Below, piece by piece: positions 26,478 to 36,106 of a stretch of 64,000 nt of DNA (positions within the stretch are counted from its first letter, which is position 1; each line of letters begins with the position of its first letter). A program made the translations under genes and the position numbers. The stretch lies in contig NZ_BBYM01000019.1 in assembly GCF_001570405.1 (NCBI RefSeq), positions 126,323 through 190,322 of the forward strand. Direction: 5' to 3'. The notes beneath the pieces were generated by a model that saw nothing but the letters and a program-made list of their open reading frames with translations, was not told where the DNA came from and ran no database searches. The stretch is from Microtetraspora niveoalba (GTDB lineage Bacteria; Actinomycetota; Actinomycetes; Streptosporangiales; Streptosporangiaceae).

Positions 26478-28337
<1,860 letters not shown>

Positions 28338-28356
<19 letters not shown>

Positions 28357-28382
28357 CGGATAAGAAGAAGCCCGCGCAGCAC
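28338..28382 (-). CDS. leuL: Leucine leader peptide MLRGLLLIRRGEGL
   Basis: A 14-codon frame, GTG CTG CGC GGG CTT CTT CTT ATC, then CGC CGC GGC GAG GGC CTG TAA, encodes MLRGLLLIRRGEGL. Five of the 14 residues are Leu, with three consecutive CTT codons followed by Ile, and CTT is rare in this G/C-ending genome. There is no Shine-Dalgarno sequence, but TAATCT (28390-28395 on the complement) lies 7 nt upstream, so the RNA probably starts at the GTG. Its end overlaps the 5' arm of the hairpin before leuA. Low charged tRNA-Leu should stall ribosomes here. Leu leader peptides before leuA are known in actinobacteria; this instance is inferred from the sequence. Confidence 0.82.
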
Positions 28383-28471
28383 GCCTTGCAGATTAGCAGA
28401 CGGCGTCGACCGCTCCGGACCGCCCGGGGCGGGGACACATATCCGGTTCGCCGGTGGAAAGGGGGTCGGGC

Positions 28472-28717
28472 ATGAAGGACGACGAGATCCTCGGCCGCAT
28501 CGGCGAGCTCATCGACGAGGAGCACATCCTGCGCGGGAGGCTGGCGGCGGGCGAGCTCACCACCGACGAGGAACACGAGCGGATCAGGACGCTGGAGCAG
28601 TCCCTCGACCAGTGCTGGGACCTGCTCAGACGGCGCCGGGCCAGCAGGGACGCCGGAGAGGACCCCGACTTCGCCGCGCCGCGGCCGGTGAACGAGATCG
28701 AGGACTACGAGCAGTGA
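28472..28717 (+). CDS. DUF2630 family protein
   Basis: An 81-residue acidic, helical protein: DDEILGRIGELIDEEHILRG, a second helix with EEHERIRTLEQSLDQCWDLLRRRRA and a C-terminal RDAGEDPDFAAPRPVNEIEDYEQ. This matches DUF2630, a conserved actinobacterial family with no known function. ATG 28472 has a purine-rich GGAAAGGGGG upstream; an in-frame ATG six codons earlier is disfavoured. It is divergent from leuA and lies 144 nt before the GNAT gene. Confidence 0.85.
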   Translation: MKDDEILGRIGELIDEEHILRGRLAAGELTTDEEHERIRTLEQSLDQCWDLLRRRRASRDAGEDPDFAAPRPVNEIEDYEQ

Positions 28718-28860
28718 TCCGCCGCCGCGCAGCCCGTACGCGGCGCGCGGCGGCCGGAGCGAGCGGGGCGGCCGGAGCCGGCGGGGCGGCCGGGAGCGCG
28801 GAGGACGGCGGCCCGGATAATCGCTCGCGCCCCGATCGGGGGTGGGGTTTCCTGGTGGAC

Positions 28861-29844
28861 ATGGACTTCGAGCGCCTCCGCCTCTCCGAGCCCGGCGACC
28901 GGCTCACCGGTCTGTACGCGATCCACCAGGCACTGGACGAGCGGGGCGCCCCGACCTCGCTGCGGCACTTCTCGGCCTCGCTGGAGAGCGGCTGGTCGGG
29001 CGAGCGCGGGGAGAGCTGGGTCGTCAGGGTGGACGGCGAGATCGCCGGCGGCTGCACGCTGCACTACCCGGACGAGGACAACACCCACCTGGCGAAGCTG
29101 ATCACGCTGGGCGTCCACCCCGACCGGCGACGCCGGGGGCTGGGCGGGGCGCTGCTCGACCACGCGATCGGCCGCGCCCGCGGCGAGGGCCGCAGCCTGC
29201 TCATCTGCGAGACCCCGACCGACGGCCCGGGCGCCGCCTTCGCCCGGGCCCGGGGGTTCGCCCCGGCCACCGCGGAGGCGCGCCGGGTCCTCGACCTGCG
29301 CACGGTGGACTGGGCGTCCTTCGAGCTCATGCGGGCGGACGCGGCGCGGCACGCCCGGGGATACACCCTCCAGCGGTGGGCCGGGCCGGCCGACGAGGAA
29401 CTGCTCGACGACCTGGCCCTGCTGACCACGTCCATGAACGACGAGCCGCTCGGCGATCTGGAGATGCGGGCCCACCGCTGGACCGCCGAACGGATCCGGG
29501 CCTCCGACCTGGCCGTGGCGAACGCCGGGCTCACGGTCTACACGATGATCGCCCGGCACGCCGCGAGCGGCGAGCCGGCCGGTTTCACCCGGATCCTGGT
29601 GGACGCGGAGGACGCGCGCGGCTGGGCGCGACAGGTCGACACCGGGGTGCTGCGGGCGCACCGCGGCCACCGGCTCGGGACGGTGCTCAAGCTGGCGAAC
29701 GCCGCCTGGCTGCACGCCTGCGAGCCGGACATCGAACGCGTCATCACCTGGAACGCCGACTACAACGCGTACATGCTGCGGATCAACGAGCTGATGGGGT
29801 TCCGGCTGCTGGACCAGTGGAACGCATGGCAGCTCCGCATCTGA
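28861..29844 (+). CDS. Tandem-GNAT acetyltransferase
   Basis: This 327-residue protein has two GNAT folds. The first, about residues 5-150, carries the acetyl-CoA loop LITLGVHPDRRRRGLGGALLDHAI (near 77-100). The second, about 160-327, carries QVDTGVLRAHRGHRLGTVLKLAN (near 258-280) and ends with NADYNAYMLRINELMGFR. Both loops retain the R/Q-x-x-G-x-G/A pattern, so both could bind acetyl-CoA. The acceptor is unknown. A -10-like GATAAT lies at 28816-28821. ATG 28861 is used; GTG 28855 is possible. It is followed 40 nt later by the first kinase-GH6 gene. Confidence 0.85.
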   Translation: MDFERLRLSEPGDRLTGLYAIHQALDERGAPTSLRHFSASLESGWSGERGESWVVRVDGEIAGGCTLHYPDEDNTHLAKLITLGVHPDRRRRGLGGALLDHAIGRARGEGRSLLICETPTDGPGAAFARARGFAPATAEARRVLDLRTVDWASFELMRADAARHARGYTLQRWAGPADEELLDDLALLTTSMNDEPLGDLEMRAHRWTAERIRASDLAVANAGLTVYTMIARHAASGEPAGFTRILVDAEDARGWARQVDTGVLRAHRGHRLGTVLKLANAAWLHACEPDIERVITWNADYNAYMLRINELMGFRLLDQWNAWQLRI

Positions 29845-29884: not shown

Positions 29885-32122
29885 GTGGTGTCAAACGGTG
29901 GAAACCACGATGAATCCCCGATAGGTGACGACCTGCGCGAGGGGGATCCACGTCAGGTCGGGCCCTTCGCGCTCCTGCGCAGGCTGGGGCAGGGCGGCAT
30001 GGGCGCGGTCTACCTCGGCCGCGCCCCCGACGGACGACAGGTCGCCGTCAAACTCATCCACCCGCAATGGGCCGCGGACCCCGGATTCCGCCGCCGGTTC
30101 ACCCGCGAGATCACCGCGGCCCAGCGCGTCGCCCGCTTCTGCACCGCCCCCGTCCTCGCCGCCGACGTCGAGGGCGACACCGCCTACCTCGTCACCGAGT
30201 ACGTCCCCGGCCCCACACTCCAGAACGCCGTACGCGCGGGAGGGCCCCTCAGCGGATCCCATCTCGAAAGCGTGGCCGTAAGCGTCGCGGTCGCGTTGCA
30301 GGCCATCCACGCGGCCGGGATCGTCCACCGTGATCTCAAACCGGCCAACGTCATCCTGTCGCCGCTCGGGCCCAAGGTCATCGACTTCGGCATCGCCCAG
30401 CTCGCCGAACCCGGAGCCCACACCAGCGCCGCCATCGTCGGCACCCCCGCCTACATGCCACCCGAACAGGCCAGAGGCGAACGCGTCACCCCCGCCTCCG
30501 ACATCTTCGCCTGGGGAGCACTCGTCGCCTACGCCGCCTCAGGCCACGCCCCCTTCGGCGACGGAACCCCACCCAGCGTCATCTACCGGATCGTCCACCA
30601 CGAACCCGACCTCACCGCACTCGAACCCCACCTGCGCACCATCGTCGCCCACACGCTCGCCAAAGAACCCACCCACCGCCCCACCGCGCAACAACTCCTC
30701 GACACCCTCACCAAGGGAGCCCACCCCGTTACGGCGGGGATGCCGGACACCGGCAGAGCCGGGCGTACGGGCGACCTCGACGGCACCGGCGCGACCGCCG
30801 AGACCGGCGGTACGGCGGGCACGGTCGTCGCGCGGCGCAGGACCGGGCTCCTCGCCGGGGCGGCGGCCGCCACCCTGGCGCTCGTGACGGCGGGGGTCGT
30901 CGTCGCCCTGCGGATCGGCGCGACCGGCGGAGACGACGGATCGCACGGGCGGACGGCCGCCTCCCCGGCGGCGTCCGCGTCGTCCGCGGCGGCCACCTCG
31001 GGCGCCTCACCCGGCGCCGCGCAGGACGGAACGAACGACGGGGCGAAGGACGGCTCCGGAGGCGGCGCGAAGAACGGCAACCCGCTGACCGGCTCCGCCG
31101 TACGGTTCTATGTCAGCCCGGACGGCGCGGCGGCCCGCCAGGCGTCCACCTGGCAGGCGGCCGGACGGGACGGCGACGCCGCCCTCATGCGGGCGGTGGC
31201 CCGGGTCCCGCAGGCGGTCTGGCTGGAGGCGCGCATGTCGGACGCCGACGCCGCGCGGATCGTGAACGCGACGCTCGACGTCGCCGGGAAGCAAGGATCG
31301 GTCCCCGTGTTCGTCACGGACCGCATCCCGCTGCGCGACTGCTACCCCAACGGCGCGCCCGACTCGCGGGCGTACTCCTCGTGGATCGACGCGATCGCCA
31401 CCGCGATCGGCGACCGCCCGGCGGTGGTCGTCCTGGAGCCGAACAGCCTGAGCAAGGTCCCGGGCACCCAGGGTTGCGCGCTCGGGGGACGCGGCGGCGA
31501 GCAGGCCCGTTACGACCAGCTCTCCGGCGCGGTCGGGCGGCTCGGCGCGCTCCCGCGGACCGCCGTCTACCTCGACGGCGGGCAGCGGTACTGGCCGTCG
31601 ATCGAGAACGCCGCGAACCGCCTGATCAAGGCGGGGCTGGACCGGGCCGACGGATTCTTCCTCAACGCCTCCGGCTTCCAGCCGACCGAGACCATCGAGG
31701 CGTACGGCGTCAAGCTGGCCAAGTGCGTCCATCTCACGAAGACGCGCGGCCCGAGCCGCTGCCTCGACGCCGAGGTCGACGTGGTCCCCGACGAAACGCC
31801 GGGGCTGCCCCACTTCGTCGTCGACACCGGACGGAACGGCAAGGGCGAGTGGCGTCCGCCCGACGGGAAGTACAAGAAGGCCCAGGAGTGGTGCAACCCT
31901 CCCGGACGGGGGCTCGGCCCGCGCCCCACGACGGACACCGCGAGCGGCCTCACCGACGCCTACCTGTGGCTACGCGACCCCACCAAGTCGAACGGCACCT
32001 GCACGCGCGGCACCTCGGGGCCGGAGGACCCCGCCTACCGGGTGGTCGCCCCGCCCGGCGGCGAGTTCTGGCCGGACCTCGCCCTCCAGCGGGCCAAGAA
32101 CGCCGTCCCGCCCCTTTCGTGA
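29885..32122 (+). CDS. Transmembrane Ser/Thr protein kinase fused to a degenerate GH6 cellulase domain (copy A)
   Basis: This 745-residue protein has three parts. Residues about 28-280 are a Hanks-type kinase with GQGGMGAVYLGR, VAVK, IVHRDLKPANVI, DFGIAQ and GTPAYMPPEQ all intact. Residues about 320-345 form one membrane helix after RRR, followed by an Ala/Ser/Gly linker. Residues about 399-745 are glycoside hydrolase family 6: RDC (Asp485), YLDGG (Asp564), HFVVDTGRNGKG, EWCNPPGRGLG and DAYLWLRDP. The catalytic acid Asp of the family VVLEPD motif is Asn520 here, and the later WCD position is Asn671, so hydrolysis is doubtful. By topology the kinase is inside and the GH6 domain outside, suggesting a glucan-sensing receptor. 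A near-duplicate follows 22 nt downstream. GTG 29849 is an alternative start. Confidence 0.9.
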   Translation: MVSNGGNHDESPIGDDLREGDPRQVGPFALLRRLGQGGMGAVYLGRAPDGRQVAVKLIHPQWAADPGFRRRFTREITAAQRVARFCTAPVLAADVEGDTAYLVTEYVPGPTLQNAVRAGGPLSGSHLESVAVSVAVALQAIHAAGIVHRDLKPANVILSPLGPKVIDFGIAQLAEPGAHTSAAIVGTPAYMPPEQARGERVTPASDIFAWGALVAYAASGHAPFGDGTPPSVIYRIVHHEPDLTALEPHLRTIVAHTLAKEPTHRPTAQQLLDTLTKGAHPVTAGMPDTGRAGRTGDLDGTGATAETGGTAGTVVARRRTGLLAGAAAATLALVTAGVVVALRIGATGGDDGSHGRTAASPAASASSAAATSGASPGAAQDGTNDGAKDGSGGGAKNGNPLTGSAVRFYVSPDGAAARQASTWQAAGRDGDAALMRAVARVPQAVWLEARMSDADAARIVNATLDVAGKQGSVPVFVTDRIPLRDCYPNGAPDSRAYSSWIDAIATAIGDRPAVVVLEPNSLSKVPGTQGCALGGRGGEQARYDQLSGAVGRLGALPRTAVYLDGGQRYWPSIENAANRLIKAGLDRADGFFLNASGFQPTETIEAYGVKLAKCVHLTKTRGPSRCLDAEVDVVPDETPGLPHFVVDTGRNGKGEWRPPDGKYKKAQEWCNPPGRGLGPRPTTDTASGLTDAYLWLRDPTKSNGTCTRGTSGPEDPAYRVVAPPGGEFWPDLALQRAKNAVPPLS
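29972..30717 (+). repeat. Kinase-coding segment duplicated at 32220-32965 (copy A)
   Basis: Aligned with copy B at a constant offset of 2,248 bp and no indels. About 29972-30236 and 30347-30717 differ at only a handful of bases, whereas about 30237-30346 differ at many synonymous and non-synonymous sites. The pattern suggests recent duplication or gene conversion in patches. Confidence 0.85.
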
Positions 32123-32144
32123 GGACACCCCGACGAGCCGACAG

Positions 32145-34325
32145 ATGGGAACCATGACGAGCGACGACGCGGGCGAGCCGCTGCGCGACGGCGATCCCCG
32201 GGAGGCGGGCGGGTACACGCTCCTGCGCAGGCTGGGGCAGGGCGGCATGGGCGCGGTCTACCTCGGCCGCGCCCCCGACGGACGACAGGTCGCCGTCAAA
32301 CTCATCCACCCGCAGTGGGCCGCCGACCCCGGATTCCGCCGCCGGTTCACCCGCGAGATCACCGCCGCCCAGCGCGTCGCCCGCTTCTGCACCGCCCCCG
32401 TCCTCGCCGCCGACGTCGAGGGCGACACCGCCTACCTCGTCACCGAGTACGTCCCCGGCCCCACCCTCCAGCAGGCCGTACGCGCCGGGGGACCGCTGAC
32501 CGGGGCCAGCCTGGAGGCGGTCGCGGTCAACGTGGCGGTGGCACTGCGGGCGATCCACGACGCGGGCGTGGTGCATCGGGACCTGAAGCCCGCCAACGTC
32601 ATCCTGTCGCCGGTCGGGCCCAAGGTCATCGACTTCGGCATCGCCCAGCTCGCCGAACCCGGAGCCCACACCAGCGCCGCCATCGTCGGCACCCCCGCCT
32701 ACATGCCCCCCGAACAGGCCAGAGGCGAACGCGTCACCCCCGCCTCCGACATCTTCGCCTGGGGAGCACTCGTCGCCTACGCCGCCTCAGGCCACCCCCC
32801 CTTCGGCGACGGAACCCCACCCAGCGTCATCTACCGGATCGTCCACCACGAACCCGACCTCACCGCACTCGAACCCCACCTGCGCACCATCGTCGCCCAC
32901 ACCCTCGCCAAAGAACCCACCCACCGCCCCACCGCGCGACAACTCCTCGACACCCTCACCAGGGGAACTCACTCCGGCTCCCTCCCGGGCGGCCCGGATG
33001 TCCGTACGGGCGAGGAGACGGGCGCGGGCGGCGCCGAGGGCGGAACGGCGCTCAGCCGCCGGCGCCGCGGAAGCGTGGTCGCGGGGACGGTCGTCGCCGC
33101 GCTCGTCACGGCGGGCGTGGTCATCGCCACGCGGGCGCCGGGGGCGCACGACGGGCAGGACGATACGGCGCGGTCCACCGCAGCGCCATCCACAACGGGG
33201 CCATCCACCACCGGGCGGACCGCGCCTGCGGGGGATCCGTCGCCGGGCTCGGGAACGGGGCCGAAACCGGGCGGGCATCCGCTGTCCGGAACCGGCGTCC
33301 GGTTCTACGCGAGCCCCGACGGCGACGCCGCCCGCCAGGCGTCCATCTGGAAGGCCGCCGGACGGGACCACGACGCCGCCCTCATGCGGGCGCTCGCGCG
33401 GGTCCCGCAGGCGGTCTGGCTGGACCGTCTCACCCCGGCCGAAGCCGCCGCCTCCGTCAGCTCGATCATGGGCACGGCGTCGCGGCAGGGCGCGGTGCCG
33501 GTCCTGGTCACCGACCGCATCCCGCTGCGCATCTGCGGCGGCGGCGAGGACAGCGGCGCGGCGAGCTCGGCCGACTACCTCGCCTGGATCGACGCGATCG
33601 CCGCCGCGATCGGCGACCACCCGGCCGTGGTCGTCCTGGAACCCAACAGCCTCACCGTGCCGCCCGGGTCGCGGGGATGCGCCCGGGAAGGCGCCGAGCA
33701 GACGGAGGCCAGGTTCCGCGACCTGGCCGCGGCCGCCGACCGCCTCGGGAAGCTGCCGCGCACGGCCGTCTATCTCGACGGCGGCGTGGAGGGCTGGCCC
33801 GACCTCCGCACCACCGCCGCGCGGCTGATCAGGGCGGGCGTCGGCAGGACCGCGGGCTTCTACCTCAACGTGTACGACCACCAGCGCACGGAGCGTCTCG
33901 TCGCGTACGGGACGAGGCTCTCCCGATGCGTCCGCGTCATCACGTCGAACGCGAACGGGACCTGCGCCGACGCCGAGCTCGACGCGGTCCCCGCGGACGG
34001 CCCCGGGCTCACCCACTTCGTGATCGACACGGCCAGGAACGGCAGGGGTGTGTGGCGGCCGCCGGCCGGTGAGTACGCGGAGCCGCAGGAGTGGTGCAAC
34101 CCTCCGGGGCGCGGCGTGGGGGTCCGCCCCACCACCGGCACCGCGAGCGAACTGGCCGACGCCTACCTGTGGATCCGCCCGCCCGGCGTCTCCAGCGGTG
34201 TCTGCGCCCGTGGCGGCCGCGGCCCCGAGGACCCGTTGTACGGGACCGTCGCCCCGCGCTTCGGCGCGTGGTGGGCCCGGATGGCCCTCGAACGCGCGAA
34301 GAACGCCGTCCCGCCCCTGTCGTGA
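32145..34325 (+). CDS. Transmembrane Ser/Thr protein kinase fused to a degenerate GH6 cellulase domain (copy B)
   Basis: This 726-residue paralogue of the preceding gene has the same order: kinase (about 25-275, all catalytic motifs intact), one membrane helix (about 308-330), a Thr/Pro/Gly-rich linker, and a GH6 domain (about 380-726) with TAVYLDGG (Asp545), HFVIDTARNGRG, EWCNPPGRGVG and DAYLWIRPPG. It is more eroded than copy A: the RDC Asp is Ile463 (RIC) and the catalytic acid is Asn501 (EPN). The kinase half is nearly identical in DNA to copy A while the linker and GH6 halves have diverged, so the two may sense different ligands yet signal alike. ATG 32145 or 32154 starts it; the 22-nt gap suggests one operon. 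Confidence 0.9.
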   Translation: MGTMTSDDAGEPLRDGDPREAGGYTLLRRLGQGGMGAVYLGRAPDGRQVAVKLIHPQWAADPGFRRRFTREITAAQRVARFCTAPVLAADVEGDTAYLVTEYVPGPTLQQAVRAGGPLTGASLEAVAVNVAVALRAIHDAGVVHRDLKPANVILSPVGPKVIDFGIAQLAEPGAHTSAAIVGTPAYMPPEQARGERVTPASDIFAWGALVAYAASGHPPFGDGTPPSVIYRIVHHEPDLTALEPHLRTIVAHTLAKEPTHRPTARQLLDTLTRGTHSGSLPGGPDVRTGEETGAGGAEGGTALSRRRRGSVVAGTVVAALVTAGVVIATRAPGAHDGQDDTARSTAAPSTTGPSTTGRTAPAGDPSPGSGTGPKPGGHPLSGTGVRFYASPDGDAARQASIWKAAGRDHDAALMRALARVPQAVWLDRLTPAEAAASVSSIMGTASRQGAVPVLVTDRIPLRICGGGEDSGAASSADYLAWIDAIAAAIGDHPAVVVLEPNSLTVPPGSRGCAREGAEQTEARFRDLAAAADRLGKLPRTAVYLDGGVEGWPDLRTTAARLIRAGVGRTAGFYLNVYDHQRTERLVAYGTRLSRCVRVITSNANGTCADAELDAVPADGPGLTHFVIDTARNGRGVWRPPAGEYAEPQEWCNPPGRGVGVRPTTGTASELADAYLWIRPPGVSSGVCARGGRGPEDPLYGTVAPRFGAWWARMALERAKNAVPPLS
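32220..32965 (+). repeat. Kinase-coding segment duplicated at 29972-30717 (copy B)
   Basis: Second member of the duplicated pair. The blocks about 32220-32484 and 32595-32965 are almost base-identical to copy A. The second block uses codons such as AAA, GAA and AGA that are scarce in neighbouring genes, hinting at an origin outside this genome. Confidence 0.85.
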
Positions 34326-34540: not shown

Positions 34541-36106
34541 ATGGCCTCCGTGTCCCTCTCGCCCGTCGCGCTGGCCGTGCGCGCGCTCATGACCGACCCG
34601 GCCGCGGACGCCCCGCTCCACTGGCCGGACACGTCCCAGTTGACCGCGTCCGACGTGGGCACGCTCCTGCCGTACGCGTACCGGACGGTCAGGAGCGGCG
34701 GCCCGGCGATGTCGGCGAGGTTCCTGGTGGAGGACGCCGTCAGGAAAGGCCGGGCGTCGTTCACGCCGGAGGCGTGCGCCGACCTGTTCCAGGCCCTGGT
34801 GGACGGGCTGGAGGCGCGGCGATGGTCCGACCTGCCGCTGGCCGTGGCGTCGCTGCCGCGCTGTCCCGACGGCCCGCCGCTCGCCGACCTCGCCGGCCCC
34901 GCGCACACGCTGGTGCGCTTCCACCTGAGCGCGCGCCGCGTCGAGGACAGGTACGCGCTGCTGACCGTCGCCGGGCTCGCCGGGCTGGACGACGAGGTGG
35001 CCGAGCTGCTCAAGGACGGTCTCGGGCCGATCGCCACGGGAGAGGTCGATCTGATGCTCGGCTGGACGCCGGAGCGTCGGGCCCTGCTGGCGGAGGTCGT
35101 CCGGGAGAGGTCCTACGGCTGCCCTCCCCAGTTGCCCGACGTATGGGAGCGGCTGGCCGCGATCCCGGAGTACGTCGCCTTCGCCCGTTCCGCGCTGGAC
35201 GCCGCCGAGGCGCGGCTCGCCGCGATCCACGCGGGCGAGATCCCCTACCGCGCCGACCGCGCCTTCGACGACGGGGAGAAGGCCGTGCTCGGCCGGGCCG
35301 TACGGCTGGCGCTGTGGCAGGACGAACCGTGGCTCCCCGACCTGCTCGACCGGCTGCTGCGCCGCGCGGTCGTCGCGCCCACCACGGCGAAGACGCTGCC
35401 CTCCCGGGGTCTGCTGTTCGAGATCGCCCGCGCGGCCGAGGAGCTCCCGACCCCGGAGGTGATCGACGCGCTGCGGGCCGCGGGGAGGATGACGCGGCAC
35501 GCGGGGGTGCCCAAGCAGCTAGACCGCATGCTCAAGCGGATCGAACACGCGCTGGCCGACCGGGTCGAGACGGCCTTCCGGATGCCGGACCTCGGGTTCG
35601 GGCCCGGCGGGCGGCTCCGCCTGCCCGTGGGCGGGCACGAGGCCGTGATCTGTGTCGACGACGACGACGTCGAGCTGACCTGGTGGCAGGGTGGGAAGCG
35701 GCTCAAGGGGGCGCCCGCGACGGTGCGGCGGGACCACGCGGACGAGGTCAAGCACGTGCGCGAGCTGACCGCGCGGACCCGCCGGCACGTCGCCACGCTG
35801 ATCCGCGCGCTGGAGACGGGCCGTACGGACGGCACCGCCCACCCCTACGCGGCCTGGCGCGAGCGGCTGGCGGACCATCCGATCGCCGGGACCGTCGTAC
35901 GGCGCCTGATCTGGGAGGTCGAGGTCTCCCCCGGACGGTGGATCACCACGCTGGGCGCCGCCGACGTCGCCGGGGCAGCGCCCGACGCCCCGGTGCGGCT
36001 GTGGCATCCGGCCCGCGCCTCCGCCGACGAGGTGCGCGCCTGGCGCGAACGGATCACCGATGAACGGATCAGACAGCCGTTCGAGCAGGCGTTCCACGAG
36101 GTCTGA
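34541..36106 (+). CDS. DUF4132 family protein, apparently C-terminally truncated
   Basis: This 521-residue protein is mostly helical with a late beta-rich part: GHEAVICVDDDDVELTWWQGGKRLKG (near 365), EVSPGRWITTLGAAD and PVRLWHPARASADEVRAWRERITDERIRQPFEQAFHEV at the very end. In DUF4132 proteins known to me the last stretch marks the start of the DUF4132 domain, which normally continues for a few hundred residues (REVY...). Here a stop follows at once. The gene may be a broken remnant or a shortened functional form. ATG 34541 is preceded by AAGGG; GTG 34550 is possible. The function of the family is unknown. Confidence 0.72.
   Translation: MASVSLSPVALAVRALMTDPAADAPLHWPDTSQLTASDVGTLLPYAYRTVRSGGPAMSARFLVEDAVRKGRASFTPEACADLFQALVDGLEARRWSDLPLAVASLPRCPDGPPLADLAGPAHTLVRFHLSARRVEDRYALLTVAGLAGLDDEVAELLKDGLGPIATGEVDLMLGWTPERRALLAEVVRERSYGCPPQLPDVWERLAAIPEYVAFARSALDAAEARLAAIHAGEIPYRADRAFDDGEKAVLGRAVRLALWQDEPWLPDLLDRLLRRAVVAPTTAKTLPSRGLLFEIARAAEELPTPEVIDALRAAGRMTRHAGVPKQLDRMLKRIEHALADRVETAFRMPDLGFGPGGRLRLPVGGHEAVICVDDDDVELTWWQGGKRLKGAPATVRRDHADEVKHVRELTARTRRHVATLIRALETGRTDGTAHPYAAWRERLADHPIAGTVVRRLIWEVEVSPGRWITTLGAADVAGAAPDAPVRLWHPARASADEVRAWRERITDERIRQPFEQAFHEV

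Follow-up and report, generated by a model that had tools for sequence, protein, structure and literature searches.

The window analysed here, a 64,000-nucleotide stretch of the Microtetraspora niveoalba contig NZ_BBYM01000019.1, contains two complete genes in tandem on the + strand, separated by 22 nucleotides between the stop of gene 1 and the start of gene 2, whose products, P0001 and P0002, each join a Hanks-type Ser/Thr kinase domain, a predicted membrane helix and a domain of glycoside hydrolase family 6 (GH6). We consider it likely that each is a single-pass receptor kinase that carries a dead cellulase as its sensor and stands outside the cellulase regulon. Open frames were defined from stop to stop, without a gene caller, and P0001 has two candidate GTG starts, at 29885 and 29849. 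The pair comprises the following features.

29885 to 32122, + strand: gene 1 (P0001, 745 aa), predicted transmembrane Ser/Thr kinase with a putative pseudo-GH6 ectodomain; protein span 29885-32119
29972 to 30703, + strand: gene 1 Hanks-type kinase domain, residues 30-273, with Lys56, Glu75, Asp150, Asn155 and Asp167 present
30848 to 30904, + strand: gene 1 predicted membrane helix, residues 322-340 (Kyte-Doolittle 2.23)
31082 to 32119, + strand: gene 1 GH6-fold ectodomain, residues 400-745; Pfam GH6 match to residues 426-709 (31160-32011)
31442 to 31444, + strand: gene 1 Asn520, at the GH6 catalytic acid position (Asp117 of T. fusca Cel6A, TfCel6A)
31991 to 31993, + strand: gene 1 Asn703, at the position of TfCel6A Asp265
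32145 to 34325, + strand: gene 2 (P0002, 726 aa), tandem paralogue with identical architecture; protein span 32145-34322
32214 to 32951, + strand: gene 2 Hanks-type kinase domain, residues 24-269
33075 to 33131, + strand: gene 2 predicted membrane helix, residues 311-329 (Kyte-Doolittle 2.31)
33276 to 34322, + strand: gene 2 GH6 ectodomain, residues 378-726; Pfam match to residues 405-690 (33357-34214)
33645 to 33647, + strand: gene 2 Asn501, at the GH6 catalytic acid position (TfCel6A Asp117)
34194 to 34196, + strand: gene 2 Ser684, at the position of TfCel6A Asp265

Both halves of the two proteins matched their Pfam families far over the cut-offs, with E-values of 8.2e-40 (P0001) and 2.8e-40 (P0002) for the kinase profile PF00069 (Pkinase) and of 2.7e-50 and 2.4e-48 for PF01341 (Glyco_hydro_6), the latter covering profile positions 10-300 of 305. 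These matches bear out the original prediction that two adjacent genes at these coordinates combine a kinase with GH6: the profile search did not place the C-terminal half outside that family, and structure prediction for residues 400-745 of P0001 returned a confident GH6 fold (pLDDT 94.6, pTM 0.93). The two ectodomains are 60% identical, and a low-complexity linker lies between the membrane helix and the GH6 domain. In the Pfam scan, neither protein contained PASTA repeats (PF03793), the ectodomain belonged to GH6 instead of GH18, and the cytoplasmic part was a Pkinase instead of an anti-sigma domain. The best NCBIfam match of the window kinases was AfsK, far below its cut-off (236.8 of 1300 bits).

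We found the catalytic residues of GH6 to be missing from both window proteins, a point absent from the original prediction: in phmmer alignments, the enzymes' EPD motif reads EPN in P0001 and P0002. We followed this loss through 78 loci (L085-L162, the named loci), taken from the best 80 of at least 516 relatives in at least 589 stretches, so that further fusions may exist. These loci hold 82 GH6 frames of full length, of which 61 also encode a kinase and 21 do not; exclusion of L132, a kinase-free frame that begins at a contig end, leaves 20 kinase-free rows, 19 of them distinct (L160 and L161 are identical), while all 61 kinase rows are distinct. A further set, L001-L084, shares species with this one, and the counts of the two sets are not summed. 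Residues are numbered as in TfCel6A, with cleft positions placed by phmmer alignment. Asp265 and the remaining cleft positions we take to be active-site residues of GH6, and Tyr73 reportedly serves in ring distortion, to judge by the title of an earlier study.

Upon comparing the two groups residue by residue, we obtained a consistent separation. Asp117, whose TrCel6A counterpart D221 is described as the experimentally supported catalytic acid in the accessible parts of two papers that also propose Asp79 (TrCel6A D175) as a remote base (PMC6091422, PMC5968413), is retained in 1 of 61 kinase-fused domains and in all 20 kinase-free ones. The fused domains likewise seldom or never keep Tyr73 (5/61), His159 (2/61), Asn190 (0/61), Lys259 (0/61), Glu263 (4/61) or Asp265 (8/61), and they keep Arg78 in 26/61 and Trp41 in 30/61, whereas the kinase-free domains have every one of these residues in 20/20, except for His159 (19/20). 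Other positions persist on both sides, namely Trp162 (52/61, with Tyr in 8, vs 20/20) and Asp156, Arg221 and Trp231 (61/61 and 20/20 each). At most two of Tyr73, Asp79, Asp117 and Asp265 are retained in any kinase-fused domain, and every kinase-free one keeps all four. In the 60 fusions that have lost it, Asp117 is replaced by Asn, Ser, Gly, Gln, Ala, Glu or Lys, and this presence of seven different residues fits a relaxed constraint at the position. Fusions that keep Asp117 were seen at L139 (Nonomuraea sediminis) and L018 (genome G003; duplicate L007) and nowhere else; both have lost Tyr73 as well as His159, and they are possible intermediates. On these alignments, the window GH6 domains are predicted pseudoenzymes, which belong to GH6 by sequence match and predicted fold and lack its catalytic Asp.

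The loss is focused on the cleft. We compared 110 enzyme-conserved alignment columns, 14 in the cleft and 96 elsewhere, across 64 kinase rows (the window pair and L132 included) and 19 enzyme rows. The enzyme residue occurred in fewer than half of the kinases at 8 of the 14 cleft columns vs 14 of the 96 others (Fisher p 0.001; Mann-Whitney p 0.002), p-values that are descriptive only because the sequences are related and the 14 positions, chosen from recall, were fixed after the first residue table had been seen. The median share of kinases with the enzyme residue was 0.28 in the cleft columns and 0.98 in the other enzyme-conserved ones. The ratio of nonsynonymous to synonymous substitution rates for gene 1 was 0.18 in the kinase, 0.31 in the GH6 domain and 0.71 in the linker against M. 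malaysiensis, and 0.19, 0.41 and 0.65 against M. fusca; for gene 2 against M. malaysiensis, the values were 0.37, 0.38 and 0.52. On these ratios, the whole ectodomain is under purifying selection. Furthermore, some positions are conserved in the kinases only, such as Trp423, Pro571 and Arg736 of P0001, the enzymes having Leu in place of Arg736.

The kinase half, by contrast with the cleft, is intact. In an alignment-based check of the 61 fusions together with P0001 and P0002, the six catalytic residues (Gly loop, VAVK Lys, alpha-C Glu, HRD Asp, Asn and DFG Asp) were complete in 62 of 63 proteins, P0001 and P0002 included. The sole exception, L116:7059-9029 from Microbispora sp. H13382, has a kinase broken in frame next to a full-length GH6 part. 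In both window proteins, the strongest hydrophobic 19-mer lies between kinase and GH6 domain, with Lys and Arg commoner on the kinase side, and weaker hydropathy peaks within the kinase domain (1.89, 1.54) were taken as part of the kinase fold. As predictions, hydropathy and the positive-inside rule each fit 59 of the 61 fusions and both window proteins. The ectodomain has six cysteines that are invariant among 35 sequences, and from these and the positive-inside rule we infer that it faces outward. A sensor role for the pseudo-GH6 ectodomain, which we likewise infer, fits a catalytically dead but selectively maintained domain on an intact kinase. The genome of the window yielded 50 matches to the gene 1 kinase domain, including itself and gene 2, the rest being at most 58% identical. 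Among eight of these paralogues that were scanned with Pfam, the kinase is accompanied by PASTA (L183), a solute-binding domain (L169) or nSTAND1/WD40 (L173), and the other five showed no Pfam domain after the kinase; given this variety, the pseudo-GH6 domain would therefore be one of several sensors on a common chassis.

The fusion occurs in many genera and appears to have a single origin. Some GH6 match was found in 237 of 341 genomes in the family search, and in the set L001-L084 a kinase shared the frame in 58 of 84 GH6-bearing frames (some loci counted twice), while 17 close relatives (L042-L058) and the ordinary cellulases were kinase-free, even in frames of more than 900 aa (L051, L061). 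Fusions were found in Microtetraspora, Microbispora, Nonomuraea, Planobispora, Planomonospora, Planotetraspora, Sphaerimonospora and Sphaerisporangium, in one metagenome-assembled genome (MAG), and in [Actinomadura] parvosata, where the leuA-GNAT context described below is that of Nonomuraea. Kinase-free relatives come from Actinomadura, Thermomonospora, Streptomyces, Kitasatospora, Actinacidiphila, Catellatospora and a Saccharothrix MAG. A sampled search of the class gave matches at E 1e-60 or better in 19 of 394 genomes. Of these, 12 belong to the family of the window and have frames 699-899 aa long; the 7 from outside that family have frames 399-526 aa long, which, judged by length, are too short for a kinase plus GH6. 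A tandem fusion pair also occurs in M. malaysiensis (L089). In Microbispora rosea, a third, shortened and kinase-free GH6 remnant (L093:13891-14508) lies downstream of two intact fusions, and the corresponding match in the genome search contains an internal stop.

A tree of 57 rows chosen from both sets placed 36 of 36 fusions in one clade (SH-aLRT 100). When it was rooted on ordinary endoglucanases, this clade was nested in a kinase-free group, such that one change explains the label; the branch uniting the fusions with Streptomyces-type enzymes has a support of only 88, and this quick tree comes with warnings about the long branches of L059 and L150 and about L060/L061, which meet the outgroup. 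The nearest secreted GH6 kin of the fusions are in Actinomadura and Streptomyces. These patterns are most simply read as the single fusion of an active secreted enzyme to a kinase, followed by the loss of its activity. The fusion would have happened in an ancestor within Streptosporangiaceae, and the cellulase would then have become a pseudoenzyme.

The enzymes and the fusions were also compared for the operator of the cellulose repressor. CebR (CelR) represses actinobacterial cellulases via TGGGAGCGCTCCCA, as described in the accessible text of PMC5332605. In 18 of the 20 kinase-free genes, the 800 bp before the GH6 domain contain a perfect TGGGAGCGCTCCCA box, one of the remaining two having a one-mismatch box and the other (L155) none, whereas upstream of the kinase domain no perfect box was found in any of the 61 fusions over the 800 bp searched (92 bp for L087). 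The set L001-L084 gave perfect boxes at 19 of 20 kinase-free genes and at 0 of 58 fusions, the full 800 bp being available for only 20 of these 58. The whole 64-kb window holds no CebR box even with up to two mismatches; the genome has 10 perfect sites, all outside the window, of which two precede its two ordinary GH6 genes. We therefore rejected membership of the fusions in the CebR regulon (0/61 boxed, none in the window), and the receptors appear, from these upstream regions, to lie outside the regulon of the related enzymes. The lack of a box fits a sensor that is needed before induction, and it also fits a role unrelated to cellulose.

The gene neighbourhood, counted over 57 of the named loci, varies by genus. 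Next to the pair, the window has two conserved neighbours.

28174 to 29844, + strand: open frame with a GNAT acetyltransferase, directly upstream of the pair (family from its homologue in L086)
26478 to 28307, - strand: leuA (2-isopropylmalate synthase), conserved neighbour (family from its homologue in L144)

GNAT stands directly upstream of the fusion, beside leuA, in 20 of the 57 loci and in the window. Because Microtetraspora and some of the Nonomuraea fusions have this block in common, it is probably an old one passed on by vertical descent. Downstream of the pair, at 34541-36106, lies a DUF4132 protein with homologues in the Microtetraspora loci L085, L086 and L089. In 14 Nonomuraea-group loci, a major facilitator superfamily transporter directly follows the fusion (L144:9074-10429, the member scanned, which matches Sugar_tr, and 13 further loci), and the fusions of Microbispora and Sphaerisporangium have other neighbours, neither leuA-GNAT nor cellulase genes.

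A different context was found in five Planobispora and Planomonospora species (5/57 loci). Here, homologues of the P. longispora genes for GH48-CBM2, GH9-CBM and GH5-CBM2 lie downstream of the fusion in the same orientation, and upstream of it come a gene for a lacI-type regulator, one for a second Ser/Thr kinase and a STAS gene; perfect CebR boxes occur at the lacI gene and before GH48 in all five. The second kinase, which lies beside the fusion, is free of GH6, overlaps the lacI-type gene and has the STAS gene after it (L091:3433-6425, L097, L105, L108, L112). The second-kinase, lacI, STAS and cellulase clusters were identified by Pfam on one member each (three for lacI) and by BLAST clustering for the rest. 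A 2012 survey reports, in its accessible text, two Ser/Thr kinases linked to CelR that stand beside lacI, Sros_0943 and Tbis_0860, each from a related genus (PMC3377646), and the Planobispora second kinase may correspond to these. No member of the GH48 cluster was found within flanks of up to 8 kb in the other 52 loci. Besides the fusion itself, no neighbour cluster was common to all lineages, the maximum being 22 of 58 loci with the window included, and we rejected the idea of one conserved partner gene across lineages, as the contexts differ by genus.

Overall, we propose as a tentative, if quite possible, account that a cellulase was captured once, disarmed and kept across many genera as a glycan sensor with a diversified cleft, outside the regulon, where it could report polysaccharide before or independently of cellulase induction. 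In the main reading, the receptor kinase with a dead sensor given above as likely, the N-terminal kinase would lie in the cytoplasm and the C-terminal GH6 half outside the cell, where the dead domain would bind a ligand, most likely a beta-glucan fragment or a related wall glycan, in its cleft or on its surface. Binding would alter receptor clustering, the kinase would then phosphorylate itself and downstream proteins, and the cell would thereby respond without degrading the signal. That the ligand is of the glucan type is a guess from kinship and from the gene context of one genus group, which we hold with some reserve; a beta-glucan is plausible yet unproven, because most of the glucose-binding residues are gone.

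Several observations weigh against this main reading. Most glucose-binding residues of GH6 enzymes are lost in the fusions, and as no box was found at the 61 kinases or in the window, nothing links the window genes themselves to cellulose. The leuA-GNAT surroundings of 20 loci and of the window, as well as the choice of the cleft columns after a first look at the residues, count on the same side. Asp79, moreover, is retained in 44 of 61 kinase-fused domains (20/20 in the kinase-free ones), which together with Asp117 in L139 and L018 makes weak residual activity of single members conceivable.

The original prediction proposed a receptor for glucan or cello-oligosaccharide. In a more specific form, such a surface receptor would bind its ligand in the old catalytic cleft and switch on cellulose use, a serious if somewhat doubtful possibility. 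Kinship with GH6 speaks for it, as does the part of the cleft that survives, with Trp231, Arg221 and Asp156 in all 61 fusions and Trp162 in 52, and so do the GH48-GH9-GH5 genes on one side and lacI on the other side of the fusion in the five Planobispora and Planomonospora species and the Ser/Thr kinases of Streptosporangium roseum and Thermobispora bispora that stand beside lacI and have been connected with CelR sites (PMC3377646, accessible text). The near-complete loss of Lys259, Asn190, Glu263, His159 and Tyr73, with Trp41 left in half, stands against it, together with kinase genes that lack CebR boxes and the 52 of 57 loci without a member of the GH48 cluster in their flanks. The loss of glucose-binding residues argues, at the level of sequence, against simple cello-oligosaccharide binding in the old subsites. 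The architecture and the sensor half of the original prediction are supported, the latter fitting a dead and maintained ectodomain, and the ligand half would be a guess, with the cleft residues mostly lost and the boxes missing; a link to cellulose has partial support in the kinship with secreted cellulases and in the cellulase cluster at 5 of 57 loci, and many loci have other surroundings.

Alternatively, the ectodomain may serve as a platform that binds a secreted partner, for instance a cellulase that is still active, a protein of the wall or a further receptor, with the cleft as a relic, which we think rather unlikely. Such a role would explain why the cleft columns lost their constraint while the rest of the fold was kept, and why positions such as Arg736 are conserved in the kinases only; it sits poorly with the retention of the cleft residues Trp231 and Trp162 in most fusions and with the absence of any neighbour cluster beyond 22 of 58 loci. 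Less probable still is a receptor for the cell's own beta-glucan from hyphal tips, as opposed to food cellulose, which would fit expression outside the cellulose regulon. In Streptomyces, tip glucan is made by CslA/GlxA, and a search of the genome of the window for PF09118, presumably the GlxA-type domain, gave no match, but its controls gave none either. A membrane-tethered cellulase that bears a kinase and has kept at least weak activity, to which the Asp79 of 44 fusions and the Asp117 of L139 and L018 might point, was rejected on the residue tables as highly improbable, since the experimentally supported acid is gone in 60 of 61 fusions and L139 and L018 lack Tyr73 and His159.

A dead cellulase on a receptor kinase suggests an old enzyme turned sensor and would make a clean case of an enzyme that became a receptor. 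The fusion comes with a natural control in the close kinase-free enzymes, whose active site is intact and which carry a CebR box. What most bacterial receptor kinases respond to is an outstanding question, according to the accessible text of PMC6069109, and as the ancestral ligand of this sensor domain is known, candidate ligands can be tested at once. If a glycan is bound, phosphorylation would be added to the ways in which actinomycetes perceive plant polysaccharide.

Compared with known systems, the fusions combine familiar parts. They share the kinase domain and the predicted inside-to-outside order with actinobacterial transmembrane Hanks kinases (PknB/PASTA, AfsK-like) and differ from the PknB type in carrying a pseudo-GH6 sensor in place of PASTA repeats. 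With secreted GH6 endoglucanases such as M. tuberculosis Cel6 and T. fusca Cel6A, they share the fold and most of the sequence core, but they have lost the catalytic acid, cleft residues and the CebR box and gained a kinase and a membrane anchor. The plant chitinase-related receptor-like kinase CHRK1 resembles them as a receptor kinase with a glycoside hydrolase fold as its outer part, although its domain order is the opposite of theirs. That outer domain is of GH18 (PMC4707873, PMC5485988) and, in the accessible text, predicted to be enzymatically active (PMC5485988), whereas the window ectodomains are of GH6, bacterial and without the catalytic residues, which leaves an analogy only. The RsgI anti-sigma factors of Clostridium thermocellum, whose described sensors include CBM3, CBM42, PA14 and GH10, likewise join a cytoplasmic signalling domain through one membrane helix to an outer domain of carbohydrate-enzyme or carbohydrate-binding type that serves as polysaccharide sensor, but they act by sigma factor release through RsgI proteolysis and come with GH10 in Clostridium instead of a kinase with GH6 in an actinomycete (PMC12203970, accessible text). 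Sros_0943 and Tbis_0860, compared by description only, are likewise Ser/Thr kinases with a link to cellulose regulation, from related genera, but the accessible text of the survey mentions no GH6 in them (PMC3377646). In the open-access literature searched, we found no description of a GH6-kinase fusion, and we rate the fusions as a sensor class that is new and spread over many genera, carried on a receptor chassis of known type; it would work in the manner of CHRK1 and RsgI but is a member of neither group. If our reading is true, they would be, to our knowledge, the first pseudo-glycosidase receptor kinases in bacteria, having converged with the RsgI sensors of Clostridium and with plant receptor kinases that carry a glycosidase-like domain.

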